This document shows, in pieces, positions 2,231 to 8,644 of a stretch of DNA of 9,479 bases. The stretch is taken from contig CATLGN010000042.1 in assembly GCA_949935685.1 (NCBI GenBank), forward strand, positions 1 through 9,479. Direction: 5' to 3'. Position numbers and translations under genes: made by a program. The DNA is from an uncultured Lachnospiraceae bacterium. GTDB lineage: Bacteria; Bacillota; Clostridia; Lachnospirales; Lachnospiraceae. The notes beneath the pieces are model-generated. The model had not been told where the DNA came from. It saw nothing but the letters and a program-made list of their open reading frames with translations, and searched no databases. The number at the start of each line of letters is the position of its first letter. Position 1 is the stretch's first letter.

Positions 2231-3796
2231 TTAATCGTCGTTTAATTTGATCACGGTGACATCGTTGATCACACGGATGCAGCCGTCATGGGGAAAGCGC
2301 GGCATTTCCTGAAATTCCGGCGTGGACTTCAGCGCTTCTTCTTCCTCCGGCGATACGACGGTAATATCTTCGCCCAGACAGTTTTGGAAGAACGGCAGAT
2401 ATGCACGGCTGGAACCGCCGAATACCCGCGCGCCTTTCATGCCGGTCATAGGCTCCAGCAGATCGGTTACGGCCTCCATTTTATAAGTTTTGCTGTAGTT
2501 GCCGACAAAGGCAATGGGTCTGTCTTTGTCATAGTCTTCGGATTGTTCCAGCCTGTCCATGATTTTGATACATAAGGCGTATGTTTTTTCATAACGGAAG
2601 TTCATGTTAAAGTATGCGATATTGGAGAGCAGAATATAATTCCATACCGCCAGGAAAACGGCGCCGAAGGATACCCATTCGAGCAGCCGGGCTCTGTTGA
2701 CGCCGCACAGCGGCGCCGCTTTTTCGTAAAAGAGAATGACGGCCGCAAAGAGAAGGCACCATGCATGGCGCATCAGCATATGGACGTTGACGCCGGAGGA
2801 AATCAGATAGAACACTTCCAGCGAGAGCGGAACGCAGAGCGCGCAGAACACGAGAAACGCATTCCGCAGCAGGCTCTTGTACACGGCGTGTTTCCAATAG
2901 AGCACTGCCGTGAACAGGAGCAGCGCGGTCAGGGAGACAGCCAGCGCCGCACGCATCCAGGGGTTGAACGCGAGTACCTGAGACGGTCCGAGAGAAGTGC
3001 GGAAGTCCTGAAAAATGAGCAGCAGCCGGTTTTTGATCTCGGCCAGACCGGGTACGGAACTATTGTCAATGCCCTGATAAGAGCTCAATTCCATATGTTT
3101 TGCCGCCAGCGTGGCGGTCATGCCGATATAGTAAGCGCCCATGCCGACGCCCAGCATCAGCACATAGCGGATTGCCATGGTCAGAATGGTCTGATCCGGA
3201 TATTGCTGCGGCTGCAAAAGCATGAGGACAAAAAAAAGCAGCATCAGGATCAGCGTAAAGGCGAGATATGCCTGATAAATTCCCACGCTACAGCACAGAC
3301 AGGCCGCGCCGGCCAGCCAGCCCCACCGGGCGTCCGTGCGGGTGACAAAATATGCCGCCAGTGTGCCGAGCAGACAGCTCAGCAGAAACGGGTCCGCGGC
3401 AAACATATAGGAATAGATGGCGGCAACCGACGGAAAGGTAATCAGCATACCGGAAATCAGGATTACGCCGAGCGTATTGCGCAGATCGAATATGCGTACG
3501 AGCACCATAGCGGCAAGTCCCGCATAGACCAGCGCAAGAATACCATTGACTGCCGGCAGACTGAAATAAGACGAGATCCCCGCCGCGTAAGTCTGCAGCC
3601 AGCGCCCCAGTTCGGGTTTGTCGAAGGTGACATACAAATACCGGATGTCGTCGTTATTGTACATGGAATTGGTAAAAATAAATATATGACAGAAAAAGCC
3701 GATGAAAAACGTGCTGAGAAAGGCTGTTCTCTGTTGCCGGGTCAGACGGCTGCACAGACTGTGCAGACAGTCCGACGGACTTTTGACGGAAAACAT
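2231..3796 (-). CDS. GtrII-like integral membrane glucosyltransferase-domain protein
   Basis: The 521-residue protein has about ten or more hydrophobic helices and a soluble C-terminal tail from about residue 420. It resembles the 'glucosyltransferase domain-containing' (GtrII, Glucos_trans_II) family, which uses lipid-linked glucose to decorate surface polysaccharides from the outer face of the membrane. Supporting features in the first 140 residues are the acidic pair D49-D50 in the first extracellular loop (MYNNDDIRYL), GRW at 64-66, and ADPF at 134-137 inside a helix-rich stretch. The GtrA flippase and GtrB lipid-glucose synthase that often accompany this family are not in the window. The start at 3796 is supported by AGGAGG eight bases upstream and by a near-consensus promoter. 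It is the first gene of a two-gene operon with the SGNH-like gene. The sugar and acceptor are unknown. Confidence 0.78.
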   Translation of the reverse strand: MFSVKSPSDCLHSLCSRLTRQQRTAFLSTFFIGFFCHIFIFTNSMYNNDDIRYLYVTFDKPELGRWLQTYAAGISSYFSLPAVNGILALVYAGLAAMVLVRIFDLRNTLGVILISGMLITFPSVAAIYSYMFAADPFLLSCLLGTLAAYFVTRTDARWGWLAGAACLCCSVGIYQAYLAFTLILMLLFFVLMLLQPQQYPDQTILTMAIRYVLMLGVGMGAYYIGMTATLAAKHMELSSYQGIDNSSVPGLAEIKNRLLLIFQDFRTSLGPSQVLAFNPWMRAALAVSLTALLLFTAVLYWKHAVYKSLLRNAFLVFCALCVPLSLEVFYLISSGVNVHMLMRHAWCLLFAAVILFYEKAAPLCGVNRARLLEWVSFGAVFLAVWNYILLSNIAYFNMNFRYEKTYALCIKIMDRLEQSEDYDKDRPIAFVGNYSKTYKMEAVTDLLEPMTGMKGARVFGGSSRAYLPFFQNCLGEDITVVSPEEEEALKSTPEFQEMPRFPHDGCIRVINDVTVIKLNDD

Positions 3797-3831: not shown

Positions 3832-3860
3832 ATTATATTACATTTGCCATATATTATCAA
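3832..3860 (-). promoter_or_regulatory. Sigma-A-type promoter of the glucosyltransferase/SGNH operon
   Basis: On the minus strand, TTGATA (3855-3860) and TATAAT (3832-3837) are separated by exactly 17 bases. Transcription would start near 3825, about 29 nt before the ATG, with AGGAGG in between. The -35 box lies only about five bases outside the left end of the large palindrome, so the repeat borders this promoter. Confidence 0.7.
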
Positions 3861-3865
3861 ATATT

Positions 3866-4289
3866 TTGGCCGGCGCCGGCGAGGAAACGCATGAGTGAAC
3901 AAAACGGGAACATAACGTGTGTGGGCACAGAGACTGAAAAATTCTGGCAGGATTATGACTTTCCGGCAAGGGCATATCATTCCGGCCATACACCGGGCTG
4001 CGGGTATAAGCAGTTCTAAGCGCTGCGATAACGAATACGGGCAGGCATGTAACCGGCCTCTATGCGCCATCCAGGCGCAGGTCGGCCTTTTCCGGACATC
4101 CTTGCCCGGAAATTACAGGCTGCGACGCAGCGGCAAGAACTGCTAATACCCTCCGTAAGGCGCATGGCCGGAATGATATGCCCTTGCCGGAATGACATTG
4201 TATTGCAGAATTTTTCAGTCTCTGTCCCGCTCAGTTATGAAGTGTTCCCGTTTTGTTCATTCATGTATTTCCTCGCTGGTGCCTGTCAA
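3866..4289. repeat. Large imperfect palindrome (long inverted repeat), about 424 nt
   Basis: The outer arms are about 3866-3989 and 4164-4289. Each reverse-complements to the other with few mismatches and small indels; shared stretches include GAACAAAACGGGAACA, AGACTGAAAAATTCTG and a perfect run of 27 bases ending in TTCCGGCCAT. The pairing continues inward: AGCAGTTCT...CGCTGCG (about 4009-4027) matches CGCAGCGGCAAGAACTGCT, and CGGGCAGGCATGT (4038-4050) matches ACATCCTTGCCCG. The centre is a hairpin at 4063-4079. It sits between divergent operons. No transposase is present. The left arm opens with a 42-codon frame (3891-4019, GAGGAAA before its ATG); the right arm has the same opening codons on the minus strand but a stop after nine codons, so I do not call a gene there. 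A second frame, 3955-4146, is discussed under findings. It is a MITE-like or structured-RNA element of a family I cannot name. Confidence 0.8.
4053..4085. other. Apical hairpin of the palindrome
   Basis: TGCGCC (4063-4068) and GGCGCA (4074-4079) pair around the five-base loop ATCCA. Below a four-base bulge (TCTA), CCGGCC (4053-4058) can pair with GGTCGG (4080-4085) with one G-T wobble. The same core stem with loop ATCCG occurs at 7703-7719 in the second repeat copy, so this tip is the best-conserved structural part. No T-tract follows immediately, so it does not look like an ordinary intrinsic terminator. Confidence 0.6.
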
Positions 4290-4497
4290 TTGATTCCCCT
4301 CCTTATATTTTTACACAAAACGGTCAAACTAACAGGCAGCAATGTGGACGGAAGAAATAAATTTCAGAAAATCCGGGTTTCGAGAGGCAAAAACAAAAAC
4401 TTTTGAAACTAAAATCTAAAATCTTTCTAAATATTGAATAAATTCTTTGTGTAGTGTAGGATTGACAAAAATAAAGAAAATATAAGGAGGGTGATTG
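4290..4497. other. AT-rich leader between the palindrome and nanE
   Basis: About 200 bases without a gene, strongly AT-rich in the second half. It should contain the nanE promoter and any operator for the RpiR-type regulator. I see a small inverted repeat TTTC-A-GAAA (about 4362-4370) and a GTTTC/GAAAC pair (4377-4381 and 4405-4409), either of which could be part of an operator, but neither is strong. No riboswitch or terminator hairpin is evident. Confidence 0.4.
4434..4462 (+). promoter_or_regulatory. Candidate promoter for the nanE operon
   Basis: TTGAAT (4434-4439) and TAGGAT (4457-4462) are spaced by 17 bases and lie just upstream of the AAGGAGG site. Each box matches consensus at four of six positions. 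An alternative with the same spacing is TTGAAA (4403-4408) with TCTAAA (4426-4431). A perfect TTGACA at 4462-4467 has no -10 box at the right distance. The choice among these is uncertain. Confidence 0.3.
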
Positions 4498-5175
4498 GTG
4501 ATTATGTTGGATAAATTGAAAGGAAAACTGATCGTTTCCTGTCAGGCGCTGCCGGATGAACCGCTGCATTCCAGCTTTATTATGTCGCGGATGGCGCTGG
4601 CGGCGCAGCAGGGCGGCGCGGCAGGTATCCGGGCACAGTCAAAGGAAGACATTCAGGCGATTCGGGAGACGGTGGATCTGCCGGTGATCGGCATTGTGAA
4701 ACGGAATTACGACGACAGCGATATTTATATCACGCCGACCCGGAAGGAAGTGCAGGAGCTTTTGGAGTGCGGTTGTGAGATTATCGCGCTGGATGCGACG
4801 CTGCGGAAACGGCCGAATGACGAGAGGCTGGAAGATCTTGTGGAAATGGTTCATGCGGGCAAATCTCTGGCGATGGCGGACTGTTCCACATTTGAAGAAT
4901 GCAGGCATGCCGTGGAGATCGGTTTTGATCTGGTGGGGACGACGCTGTGCGGTTATACACCGTATTCCGAAAAGCTGGACGGTCCGAACTTTGACCTGCT
5001 GAAAAAATGTGTGCAGGAGTTGGATGTCCCGATTATCGCGGAGGGAAAGATTAACACGCCCGAGGAACTGAAACAGGTCATGGAGGAGTGCGGCGTATAC
5101 AGTGCGGTTGTGGGCGGTGCGATCACAAGACCGAAACAGATTACGGAACGTTTTGTCAAAGCAATTAATAAGTAA
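4498..5175 (+). CDS. nanE: N-acetylmannosamine-6-phosphate 2-epimerase
   Basis: Cytoplasmic TIM-barrel enzyme that converts ManNAc-6-P to GlcNAc-6-P in sialic acid and ManNAc catabolism. The whole family pattern is present: the N-terminal [53 protein letters not shown] and IIAEGKI, ending with VVGGAITRP. Counting from the ATG at 4504, the lysine of GIVKR is K66 and the glutamate of AEGK is E180, the positions of the catalytic Lys and Glu described for the Clostridium perfringens enzyme, so it should be active. The start is uncertain: GTG at 4498 has ideal spacing (7 nt) from AAGGAGG, whereas ATG at 4504 gives the family-like N-terminus but 13 nt spacing. It is the first gene of the operon, followed by the PTS gene after 15 nt. 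No sialate lyase (NanA) or ManNAc kinase is nearby; the PTS would supply the 6-phosphate directly. Confidence 0.95.
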
Positions 5176-5190
5176 AGGAGGAAACAGATT

Positions 5191-6693
5191 ATGTTTAAAA
5201 CACTGCAGAAAATCGGAAAATCTTTTATGCTGCCGATTGCCATTCTGCCGGCAGCCGGCTTGCTGCTCGGGATCGGGAGCGCATTGAGCAGCGAAGCGAC
5301 GCTTCTCAGTTATCCGATGTTGAACATACCGTTTTTACAGGCAATCTTTAAAATTATGGCGGCGGCCGGCAATACGGTCTTCTCCAATCTGTCGCTGCTG
5401 CTCTGTATCGGCCTCTGTATCGGGCTGGCGCAGAAAGACAAAGGCGTGGCTGCCCTGTCGGGTGTTGTCGGTCTGTTGATTATGAACGGGACGATCGGCG
5501 TGATGCTGTCCATATTTAATCCCGAAGGTTCCGGGATTGACACAGGTGTTGTCGGCGCGTTGGTTATGGGTGCGGTTGTCGTAAAACTTCACAATAAATA
5601 CCGGAGCGTTCAGCTTCCGCAGGTGCTCGGCTTCTTCGGCGGTTCCCGCTTTGTTCCGATTATCACTTCGGTGGCGGCTATTTTGGTGGGCGCAGCGTTT
5701 TATCTTGTGTGGCCGCCGCTGCAGAATCTGCTTGTAATGGCAGGAAACGGGATTGCCTCCATGGGCGTTATCGGCACTTTCTTATATGGTTTCCTGATGC
5801 GTCTGTGCGGTGCGGTCGGGTTGCACCATATGATTTATCCGATGTTCTGGTACACGGAACTGGGCGGCGTGGAAGTCGTTGCCGGTGAAACCATTGCCGG
5901 GGCGCAGAAAATTTTCTTTGCGCAGCTTGCGGATCCGAACCATGCCGGACTGTTTACGGAGGGGACACGGTTCTTTGCCGGCCGTTTCAGCACAATGATG
6001 TTTGGCCTTCCGGGCGCATCCCTGGCGATGTATCATTGTGTCAAGAAGGAAAAACGCAAAAAATATATGGGTATCTTTCTGAGCGTTGCGCTTACTTCGA
6101 TTATCACCGGTATTACAGAGCCGCTGGAATACATGTTTTTGTTTGTTTCGCCTATATTATATGTAATCCATTCTTTCTTTGACGGATTATCGTTCCTCGT
6201 GGCGGATCTTTTGAGTATTCGAATCGGCAATACGTTTTCGGGCGGATTGATTGACTTCTTCTTATTTGGTATTTTGCAGGGAAATGCAAAAACGCACTGG
6301 CTGATTCAGATTCCGTTTGGATTGTGCTGGACGGCGCTGTATTATGTGACGTTTAAATTTGCCATTACAAAATTCAATATTATGACGCCCGGGCGGGACG
6401 ATACGGAAAGTATGGACGAGGCGCCGAAGGTTGCCGATAAGTCTTCGATCGCGGAGGAAGCGAAGCGCATTCTGATCGCACTTGGCGACACCGCTAATAT
6501 CGAGGATGTGGATGCCTGCATAACGAGGCTGCGTGTCAGCGTAAAAGATCCGGCTGCGGTTGATAAGGATCTGCTGAAGGAAATGGGAGCTGCCGCAGTA
6601 TTTGAGATAGACGGCGGAATCCAGGCCGTGTATGGTGCAAAAGCAATTCTTTATAAAAACGCGATCAATGATATTCTGGGTATCGACGATTAG
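5191..6693 (+). CDS. PTS EIIBC permease, glucose/N-acetylglucosamine family, probably for ManNAc or a related amino sugar
   Basis: A 500-residue membrane sugar transporter that phosphorylates its substrate during uptake. The N-terminal EIIC domain (about 1-395) begins in the typical way (FKTLQKIGKSFMLPIAILPAAGLLLGIG), has about ten helices, a GLHHMIYP-like loop, and the signature GITEPLE at 307-313 with the conserved glutamate. A linker leads to an EIIB domain (about 420-497) with the phospho-accepting cysteine C443 in DACITRLRV. There is no EIIA domain, so a EIIA-Glc-type protein encoded elsewhere must donate phosphate, as in several members of this family. Position between nanE and an RpiR-type regulator suggests ManNAc as the substrate (delivered as ManNAc-6-P), with GlcNAc or MurNAc as alternatives; specificity cannot be read from sequence alone. 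The ATG is preceded by AAAGGAGG at nine bases. Confidence 0.9.
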   Translation: MFKTLQKIGKSFMLPIAILPAAGLLLGIGSALSSEATLLSYPMLNIPFLQAIFKIMAAAGNTVFSNLSLLLCIGLCIGLAQKDKGVAALSGVVGLLIMNGTIGVMLSIFNPEGSGIDTGVVGALVMGAVVVKLHNKYRSVQLPQVLGFFGGSRFVPIITSVAAILVGAAFYLVWPPLQNLLVMAGNGIASMGVIGTFLYGFLMRLCGAVGLHHMIYPMFWYTELGGVEVVAGETIAGAQKIFFAQLADPNHAGLFTEGTRFFAGRFSTMMFGLPGASLAMYHCVKKEKRKKYMGIFLSVALTSIITGITEPLEYMFLFVSPILYVIHSFFDGLSFLVADLLSIRIGNTFSGGLIDFFLFGILQGNAKTHWLIQIPFGLCWTALYYVTFKFAITKFNIMTPGRDDTESMDEAPKVADKSSIAEEAKRILIALGDTANIEDVDACITRLRVSVKDPAAVDKDLLKEMGAAAVFEIDGGIQAVYGAKAILYKNAINDILGIDD

Positions 6694-6731
6694 ATCGCCG
6701 TATCGTTACGGAGTATGGAGTAAAGAGTGTT

Positions 6732-7535
6732 ATGATGTATACGGAAGATATTATTCCTGCGATCATTGATCGTTATGAGTATTTTACAAAGGGAGAGCAG
6801 GTCATCGCGGATTTCTTTGTCAGCAATAAAGAAAAGCAGGATTTTTCCATCCGTGCGATGAAAGAGAAGCTGTATGTTTCAGAGGCTTCTCTTTCCCGCT
6901 TTGCCAAAAAACTGGGATTTCGGGGATACCGTGAATTTATTTACCAGTATCAGCGGGCATTTGTGAATATGACCGACGGAATTCCCATATCCTTTCAGAC
7001 GGTGCTCAATCGGTATAATGATCTGCTGCGCCGGTCGTTCAGCATTGTGAATGAAGAACAGATCAAGCGTATCTGCCGCATGATCGGAGAGTCGAAACGC
7101 GTTCTCGTGGTGGGGATCGGAAGCTCGGGATTGGCTGCGGAGGAGATGAAGCGGCGGTTTGTCCGTCTGGGTGTTCTCATGGAATCCTGTGATCAGCGTG
7201 ATATGATTAAAATGGCTGCTATTTTTCAGAATATCGATCATATGGTGATTGGCATTTCGCTGAGCGGACTGAAGGAGGAAGTGCTTTTTGCACTGGAACA
7301 GTCCCATCAGCGGGGCGCCAAAACGGTTTTTATTACCGGAAACCGTGCGAGACATGCATTTGTCGATGAACAGATCACGGTGGCGGCGCTGAAAAATCTG
7401 GACAATGGCAATCTGATTTCACCGCAGTTCCCGATTCTTGTCATAATTGATCTGTTGTACGGTTACTTTCTGGATTCCGATCAGAATAAGCGAGTGCTGC
7501 ATCAGGAGACCGTGGAGATACTGGAAAAGCGGTAA
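6732..7535 (+). CDS. MurR/RpiR-family transcriptional regulator
   Basis: A 267-residue protein with the usual two domains. The N-terminal helix-turn-helix (about residues 1-75) includes FSIRAMKEKLYVSEASLSRF and KKLGFRGYREF. The C-terminal SIS domain (about 115-245) opens with RVLVVGIGSSG (123-133) and carries the phosphosugar-contact pattern S176-L-S-G179. Proteins of this family bind sugar phosphates and usually repress neighbouring sugar-catabolism genes; the likely ligand here is ManNAc-6-P or GlcNAc-6-P. It is the third gene of the operon, 38 nt after the PTS gene, so it may control its own transcription. Two ATGs (6732 and 6735) are possible and the ribosome site is weak (GGAG about 11 nt away), consistent with low expression of a regulator. 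Confidence 0.9.
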   Translation: MMYTEDIIPAIIDRYEYFTKGEQVIADFFVSNKEKQDFSIRAMKEKLYVSEASLSRFAKKLGFRGYREFIYQYQRAFVNMTDGIPISFQTVLNRYNDLLRRSFSIVNEEQIKRICRMIGESKRVLVVGIGSSGLAAEEMKRRFVRLGVLMESCDQRDMIKMAAIFQNIDHMVIGISLSGLKEEVLFALEQSHQRGAKTVFITGNRARHAFVDEQITVAALKNLDNGNLISPQFPILVIIDLLYGYFLDSDQNKRVLHQETVEILEKR

Positions 7536-7594
7536 TGGGGTGCTGCCTGTCTACGCAGGATATGACAAACGCAGGAAAAAGTCCTGACAAGGTT

Positions 7595-7735
7595 ATGGCT
7601 TTCCGGCAGGGACGCGGCATTCCGGCTAAGCACCGGGCTACAGGCATAAGCGGTTCTAATCGCTGCGGCAACGGATATTGGCAGGCGTGCAACCGTCCCC
7701 TATGCGCCATCCGGGCGCAGGGCAGACTTTTCCAT
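7595..7735 (+). repeat. Half copy of the palindromic repeat
   Basis: This aligns without gaps to 3955-4095, the left arm and tip of the large palindrome, with 111 of 141 bases identical by hand count. It shares the apical hairpin (7703-7719: TGCGCC, loop ATCCG, GGCGCA). The matching right arm is absent: after about 7735 the sequence no longer pairs with the left side, so this is a half element or a decayed copy. A frame opening at ATG 7595 stays open to 7807 and encodes a peptide similar to the frame at 3955-4146 (shared pattern M-x-FRQG-x-x-IPA and QACNRPLCAI). Confidence 0.75.
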
Positions 7736-7932: not shown

Positions 7933-7985
7933 AAAAGTAGACCTCAATTTTTCTTTAGATTTCAAGAATAGAAAGGGTGGCTTTT

Positions 7986-8243
7986 ATGAATTTAGCAAAA
8001 ATCTCTGCGAATGGACAAATTACTGTGCCGGTGGAAATTCGCCGTCTGCTGGGTCTGAAGTCCGGCGATAAGATTCTGTTTTACCAAAAGCAGGACGGAG
8101 AGGTGGTTTTAAGTAATGCCTCTGCACAGGCAATCCGTAAAGCGCAGTCTGCTTTTTCGGGCGCAGCCGAAGCTATGGGGATTTCCAGTGAAGAGGATGT
8201 GCAGGCTCTTGTGGACGAAGTACGTTACGGAAAGGAAAGGTAA
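7986..8243 (+). CDS. AbrB/MazE-type antitoxin
   Basis: A small protein of 85 residues. Its first about 48 residues are a SpoVT/AbrB DNA-binding fold (MNLAKISANGQITVPVEIRR, then LGLKSGDKILFY and GEVVLSN), which forms a swapped-hairpin dimer in this family. The C-terminal part is helical and charged and would wrap the toxin to block it. ATG at 7986 is chosen over the in-frame GTG at 7977 because AAAGGG lies eight bases before it and the family pattern begins there. The PIN toxin gene starts two bases after its stop, a normal antitoxin-first order with translational coupling. Confidence 0.88.
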   Translation: MNLAKISANGQITVPVEIRRLLGLKSGDKILFYQKQDGEVVLSNASAQAIRKAQSAFSGAAEAMGISSEEDVQALVDEVRYGKER

Positions 8244-8245
8244 AA

Positions 8246-8644
8246 TTGCGGATATTGGTCGATACAAACATTCTCTTTTCCGCGTTGGTTTTCCCACGAT
8301 CAAGACCGGCACAGGCTCTGCTCCATGTAGCCGACAACCATGAGATGGTCCTATGTGATCGCAATATCACAGAGTTGCGGGATATTCTGGAGCGGAAAGC
8401 ACCTAAGTTTCTGCCGGATACGGAAGTACTGCTGGCAGAAATGTCTTATGAGTTGGTCCCGGCGGTAAACCATGCGGAAAAACTGATACGTGACGCAAAG
8501 GACCAGCCAATCCTCAATGCTGCCATTGTGTCTGATGTGGATATTATACTTACAGGAGACAAAGACTTTCTAAGCCTTGAAATGGAACATCCCAGATGTA
8601 TGACTGTCGCACAGTTTTTAGAAAGTGAGGGCGTGGTGGAATGA
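8246..8644 (+). CDS. PIN-domain toxin (putative ribonuclease, VapC-like)
   Basis: A 132-residue PIN protein of the 'putative toxin-antitoxin system toxin component, PIN family' type. Such toxins are metal-dependent ribonucleases that stop growth by cutting RNA when the antitoxin is lost. The acidic active-site set is present: D6 (LVDTNI), E43 (NITELRDIL), D86 (RDAKDQPIL, D83 nearby) and D105 (ILTGDKDF, D107 nearby), so it should be catalytically competent. It starts with TTG only two bases after the antitoxin stop; AAGGAAAGG in the end of the antitoxin gene serves as ribosome site. The RNA target is unknown. It may stabilise a mobile element: a recombinase scrap lies three bases beyond its stop on the other strand. 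Confidence 0.88.
   Translation: MRILVDTNILFSALVFPRSRPAQALLHVADNHEMVLCDRNITELRDILERKAPKFLPDTEVLLAEMSYELVPAVNHAEKLIRDAKDQPILNAAIVSDVDIILTGDKDFLSLEMEHPRCMTVAQFLESEGVVE

Follow-up and report, generated by a model that had tools for sequence, protein, structure and literature searches.

The palindrome at positions 3866–4289 of the DNA analysed here is probably one copy of a multi-copy, MITE-like element that carries the RNA family TwoAYGGAY at its centre, is likely to be moved by a DDE-type transposase encoded elsewhere and has a minus-strand RNA predicted to bind CsrA. The window, which is the whole of a 9,479-nucleotide contig (C42), belongs to the 2.0-Mb genome (69% complete; hereafter G000) of an uncultured Lachnospiraceae bacterium. 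Earlier interpretations of TwoAYGGAY were either as a cis-regulatory RNA, the type assigned to it in Rfam (RF01731), or as an RNA that sequesters or binds CsrA, as already proposed by Gardner and Eldai (PMC4333381). Together with Clostridiales-1, it was tabulated in 2010 among candidate RNA families, with no function given (PMC2864571). In the present data its behaviour is that of a mobile repeat with dispersed copies.

Structure of the palindrome and identity of its core

Repeat searches of the window and RNA folding confirm the near-complete palindrome from which this work started. Three sets of inverted arms were found, at 3866–3912/4243–4289 (47 nt, 85% complementary), 3924–3946/4206–4228 (23 nt, 96%) and 3938–4027/4126–4215 (90 nt, 77%), and the predicted fold of 3846–4309 reaches −272.9 kcal/mol compared with −145.1 ± 6.5 for 100 dinucleotide shuffles (z −19.6), none of which was as good. 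Pairing is weaker in the outermost 13 nt on each side than in the rest. The palindrome sits between divergent genes for a GtrII-type glucosyltransferase (2231–3796, minus strand) and a NanE-type epimerase (4495–5175, plus strand); the longest open reading frames inside the 398-bp element are shorter than 150 amino acids, and the stated lack of a transposase is borne out for the nine window proteins scanned against Pfam. The epimerase, a PTS EIIBC transporter and an RpiR-type regulator are consecutive (4495–7535), a likely amino-sugar operon, and at 7977–8644 a PIN-domain gene comes directly after one for a MazE-type antitoxin, a likely toxin–antitoxin pair.

The original prediction could not match the palindrome to a named family, a statement that no longer holds: the middle of the palindrome, read on the minus strand, covers the RF01731 model from end to end at 92.4 bits, against a gathering score of 43. 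In Rfam the family is a model of 168 nt, whereas here it is flanked on both sides by further palindromic sequence that finishes in transposon-type ends, and it occurs in many copies without preference for gene or strand. The related half copy noted in the window was also recovered, as a relic (Table 1): by direct reading, hairpin 1 and the greater part of the second arm are gone, and an Rfam scan of the window gives no RF01731 match there.

Table 1 Features of the palindrome and related loci
Feature	Position	Strand	Basis or remark
MITE-like palindromic element (probable)	3879..4276	-	398 bp; sister-copy end comparison and same-genome BLAST matches; ends degenerate CACGAC-type, here GCGAGG/CCTCGC
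Left outer arm (limits of the original prediction)	3866..3912	.	Pairs with 4243–4289
Right outer arm	4243..4289	.	Pairs with 3866–3912
TwoAYGGAY RNA core (Rfam RF01731)	3995..4158	-	Model positions 1–168; 92.4 bits
Hairpin 1	4089..4112	-	Sequence and Rfam alignment
Hairpin 1 loop	4098–4103	-	AAGGAT (A-N-GGA-Y); predicted CsrA site
Hairpin 2	4063..4079	-	Sequence and Rfam alignment
Hairpin 2 loop	4069–4073	-	TGGAT (N-GGA-Y); predicted second CsrA site
Relic copy	7577..7733	-	One arm and hairpin 2 left; 79% identity to 3937–4093
Clostridiales-1 loci inside GATTCGGG-type ends	L259:3093–3259; L296:2558–2724; L313:4605–4771; L271:1–103		

Copy number and distribution

The search for further copies that had been proposed was productive, with about 55 dispersed in G000 and others across the family. 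RF01731 matches 55 times in G000, 54 of them above the cut-off, and BLAST with the window element returns at least 51 matches in the same genome, the element itself included. Counts in nine congeners were 17, at least 51, 0, 0, 0, 8, 0, 2 and 0. Across the family, 65 of 397 genomes, representing 58 of 334 genera, hold a match (63 genomes above the cut-off); with at most six candidates scored per genome under strict filters, counts from this survey are lower bounds. None of 16 genomes from other families of the order matched. The genomes vary in completeness, and copies were sampled by best score.

Ends, target duplications and insertion

The end pattern of the G000 copies, CACGACAAACGCATGAATGAAC, matches 75 times in that genome at up to three mismatches, against 0 for the reversed control. 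Of 52 copies tested, 23 have both ends by the criterion used, and nine of these are flanked by direct repeats of 7–10 bp where mismatched flanks predict 0.05. Mostly 9–10 bp long, these duplications include three exact 10-mers (GATTCTATTA, TTATTTTTCA and ATTTATCGCA), with three exact 9-mers, one 10-mer with a mismatch, one 8-mer and one 7-mer making up the remainder. The congener G002 has other ends, GATTCGGGTGTCAAAAG, and 7-bp duplications, present at 6 of 12 two-ended copies (25 tested) against 0.64 expected; the other 14 of 23 copies in G000 and 6 of 12 in G002 fall below the duplication score. Duplications of this kind around sister copies are typical of transposons, and the element is therefore likely to be carried to new sites by a transposase encoded elsewhere. 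The proposed check of ends and target duplications thus came out positive for the sister copies and negative for the window copy, which has degenerate ends and no detected duplication and whose insertion we therefore infer from its relatives.

An occupied site can be compared with empty ones between argJ and argB: the gap is 375 nt and holds the element in G002, and it is 21–167 nt without an element in eight other genomes of the genus, including that of the window (one further genome was not readable on the argJ side). As an empty site for the window copy itself, G008 was considered and rejected, because its similarity starts only at 4395 and leaves no clean empty site.

Ends of the G002 type also occur, among the matches listed, in records titled Lachnospiraceae, Roseburia, Blautia, Anaerocolumna and a few others. 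Eighty stretches were listed of at least 116, and 75 of the 80 were scanned for RNA families; 19 of these 75, again among the matches listed, hold TwoAYGGAY, each 50–57 nt from the end. A flank test took in 16 of the 19 loci, the other three being truncated where their contigs stop, together with three for Clostridiales-1. Of these, 17 were scorable: exact 7-mer duplications were found at 5 of 17 (control rate 0.000) and matches of at least six of seven positions at 8 of 17 (control rate 0.029). The 7-bp duplications of G002 and the named Lachnospiraceae resemble one another (TTCATAG, CTATAAG, CTATGAA, CTACTAG, CCTATAG), and this likeness suggests a preferred insertion target for these elements. 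Contigs filed under Muribaculum, Muribaculaceae and Gastranaerophilales MAGs (L260, L274 and L312) also carry GATTCGGG-type ends and may be misbinned Lachnospiraceae.

Elements of 62–240 bp have the same ends and no core. Searches of plasmid and phage collections gave no match to the element, and viral contigs contain no exact GATTCGGG-type end; one viral contig (L428:13536–13708) contains a core-less, CACGAC-ended element of 173 bp with a 9-bp duplication, AAAGTATGT. No transposase between GATTCGGGTGTCAAAAG or CACGACAAACG ends was found in the loci examined, which came from a genome 69% complete and from a listing of 80 of at least 116 end stretches. Two candidate sources of an autonomous partner were rejected: the genes enclosed by one G002 pair of ends 3 kb apart (L201) are by reading of transporter type, with no transposase among them, and no open reading frame recurs beside unpaired ends in the named records except for two matches on one haloarchaeal plasmid.

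The MITE-like reading offered at the outset is thus supported by the many copies, common inverted ends, duplications, an occupied and empty site and core-less elements. Like bacterial MITEs, the element is short (398 bp), has no internal transposase gene, shares terminal inverted repeats (degenerate in the window copy) with many intergenic relatives (55 matches) and shows target duplications at sister copies. It differs from them in a conserved two-hairpin, RNA-type core common to two end families, in arms that are copy-specific in some genomes and in that no autonomous partner was found in the loci examined.

Self-complementarity of the arms

Of 177 sampled copies with sufficient flanking sequence, 168 continue to pair past the Rfam model, and this holds in 47 of 49 genomes; of 531 left arms tried with the right arm of another genome, 7 pair. 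Because single copies are themselves palindromic, two units inserted head to head are not supported as the origin of the window element. Of the explanations first put forward, those of a MITE-like element and of a dispersed structured RNA are supported, the latter by virtue of the Rfam match, and the head-to-head reading is not supported here.

Within a genome, arms rarely pair with those of another copy in G328 (14 of 300 pairings), G017 (3 of 30) and G001 (11 of 90), and are therefore copy-specific there; they are partly shared in G000 (150 of 576), G002 (135 of 276) and G013 (92 of 110). The arm mismatches comprise 378 G:T and 428 A:C, and this near equality suggests that complementarity is maintained in the DNA and not in one RNA strand; selection on RNA alone is not supported for the arms. 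Neither arms nor hairpins show a G:U strand bias, which does not favour selection on RNA. An early excess of G:U in the core (108 against 30) proved to include wobble pairs fixed in the consensus; without these, the hairpins of G000 and G002 together have 15 G:U and 25 A:C, no excess, and the outer core stem still has an excess in G000 (97 G:U against 56 A:C, p 0.0012) and none in G002 (28 against 40).

Where arms are copy-specific, target duplications are not clearly more frequent than expected. A first test used a threshold too high for 7-bp repeats (1 of 24 in G002); in the 7-mer test, observed counts (expected in brackets) were 1 of 24 in G328 (0.39), 0 of 10 in G001 (0.44), 0 of 7 in G006 (0.00), 1 of 6 in G017 (0.20) and 1 of 11 in G013 (0.70), compared with 7 of 47 in G000 (0.98) and 5 of 24 in G002 (1.17). 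Arms that match each other well and are nevertheless specific to one copy may arise by arm-to-arm templating, from a DNA hairpin under selection or through entry of the core into existing palindromes.

Predicted CsrA sites in the two loops

In 52 G000 copies, seven loop sites (the hairpin 1 A and the two GGA triplets) are without substitution and the neighbouring positions vary, the Y of hairpin 2 being T in 33 copies and C in 19; 36 of 157 other sites are likewise invariant, giving a chance of about 3e-5 on the assumption of independent sites, which does not quite hold. The matching sites are also invariant in 25 G002 copies (about 2.5e-4), yet hairpin 1 there reads ACGAY without GGA. A test of loop conservation restricted to singletons was weak (p about 0.04 and 0.03). 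In a set of 183 copies from 49 genomes, whose hairpins were identified by a C–G closing pair and a loop containing GA, both loops carry GGA in 119 copies, a single loop does so in 58 and neither does in 6; GGA is lost in most G017 copies and from hairpin 1 of most G002 copies.

According to one report (PMC7652899), CsrA/RsmE prefers A-N-GGA-N hexaloops, a CsrA dimer can bridge sites 10–63 nt apart and most of the CsrA hairpins selected by SELEX have no more than four contiguous pairs. The two GGAs of the core lie 29 nt apart, start to start; against CsrA binding, the TwoAYGGAY stems, at about ten pairs, are longer than the SELEX-selected ones. If transcribed, the RNA of the element is predicted from its loop sequences to bind the global regulator CsrA. 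It resembles CsrA-sequestering RNAs of the CsrB/RsmZ type in having hairpins with A-N-GGA-N loops, and differs from them in that a unit has only two sites, long stems and a place within a repeat.

The window's genome has a CsrA gene (G000:C61), and CsrA is present in 62 of 65 TwoAYGGAY-positive genomes compared with 148 of 332 negative ones (Fisher 4e-16; the genomes are related). The positive genomes without CsrA are G192, G343 and G382; G343 also lacks a flagellin match, yet holds one copy with both GGA loops. Flagellin, used as a control to separate CsrA from motility, failed in that role, as it occurs in 64 of 65 positive and 149 of 332 negative genomes; because it co-varies and the genomes are related, the association with CsrA may reflect motility or lineage. 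What is added here to the proposal of Gardner and Eldai is the repeat, its ends, a second family and this co-occurrence.

The same data bear on a purely selfish MITE, the core of which would be a DNA hairpin used in transposition (by the transposase or in replication) and its likeness to CsrA sites incidental. Near-equal G:T and A:C counts in the arms and also in the hairpins, random orientation relative to genes (below) and the ACGAY loops of G002 and G017 all fit this reading. The core-less elements argue against it, as they show that the core is not needed for the movement of those elements; so do the A-N-GGA-Y loops, which with N and Y free fit CsrA, and the association with CsrA genomes, confounded as it is. 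We regard a purely selfish element as possible but unlikely.

Clostridiales-1, a further RNA family within these ends

In four loci of one named MAG (S22M_St_6), the orphan RNA family Clostridiales-1 (Rfam RF01699) has a GATTCGGG-type end 10–11 nt away (Table 1). The three copies with both flanks, nearly identical to one another, lie inside perfect 7-bp duplications (CTGACAG, CTATGAA and GTAAAAA, read by eye). One kind of mobile ends thus carries at least two orphan structured-RNA families, and Clostridiales-1, judged by these flanks, also looks mobile. It shares GATTCGGGTGTCAAAAG-type ends and 7-bp duplications with TwoAYGGAY of G002, but its core is unrelated and, by reading, not a full palindrome, and all four examples come from a single MAG.

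The core of the present element might itself be mobile in its own right, homing as a module to the centre of palindromes already in place, among them MITEs of two or more end families. This would account for the same core within two unrelated end families with different duplication lengths, for core-less palindromic elements with each set of ends and for the copy-specific arms of G328, G017 and G001. No empty palindrome was seen, however, for a locus with copy-specific arms; the shorter elements are equally explicable as deletion derivatives, and arm-to-arm templating could likewise make arms diverge together. We consider a homing core decidedly improbable. A wider version of it would make TwoAYGGAY a self-standing mobile RNA module or CsrA decoy that enters unrelated palindromes and MITEs, with Clostridiales-1 a second module on the same ends. 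Persisting in dozens of copies in motile, CsrA-bearing Lachnospiraceae, TwoAYGGAY would through its copy number buffer or rewire their Csr network. We put this wider version forward as speculation with a small chance of being right.

Gene context and paired copies

Both neighbours could be called (from open reading frames) for 95 of 113 copies, of which 54 lie between codirectional, 19 between divergent and 22 between convergent genes. At the codirectional sites the motif is in sense in 25 and antisense in 29, so that about half of the copies would be read on the wrong strand, and no neighbour family recurs in more than four genomes. Neither orientation nor neighbours support cis-regulation, and a terminator role was rejected because convergent sites are not enriched.

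These observations weigh on a host regulatory RNA, that is, a CsrA-sequestering small RNA or leader kept by the host, whose copies would reflect dosage and not mobility. The Rfam typing, the sequestration proposal (PMC4333381), the conserved loops and the co-occurrence with CsrA speak for it; against it are the target duplications and the empty site, the even split of strands, the lack of a widely recurring neighbour and a copy number that ranges from 0 to at least 51 within one genus. We judge it more doubtful still than a homing core. A REP/BIME-like intergenic repeat or bidirectional terminator would explain stable hairpins in intergenic DNA, but is very improbable given the spread of copies over convergent, divergent and codirectional sites and, by reading, no T run at the ends of the window copy.

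Where copies neighbour one another at less than 2.5 kb, 20 of 22 pairs are minus-then-plus, facing away from each other (p 1e-10 against one in four); the pairs come from G000, G001, G002, G017, G140, G328, G389 and G408. The short gaps of some G000 pairs are alike by reading, and the back-to-back pair may itself be a unit. In G328, an AT-rich non-coding repeat of about 0.4–0.7 kb, some 88–95% identical between loci, adjoins or separates TwoAYGGAY copies (L408, L409, L410, L411, L414, L418 and L419).

Proposed mechanism and implications

For a MITE-like element with a TwoAYGGAY centre, we propose that a transposase encoded elsewhere would recognize the ends, paste the element into intergenic DNA and duplicate the target, and that self-complementarity of the arms would be maintained in the DNA, either by a DNA hairpin or by templating of one arm on the other. 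Wherever transcription runs across the element on the correct strand, the two loops of the RNA would offer a bridged site for a CsrA dimer, and many copies together could act as a CsrA sink.

In the literature covered, we found neither TwoAYGGAY nor Clostridiales-1 described as a mobile element. Pairing past the Rfam model in nearly all sampled copies carries the caution that screens for structured RNAs can pick up palindromic MITEs. Two orphan RNA families of 2010 are carried by transposon-type ends; mobility would explain, for both, the scattered distribution and the absence of a regulated gene, and it raises the testable question of whether a mobile element has acquired CsrA decoys.
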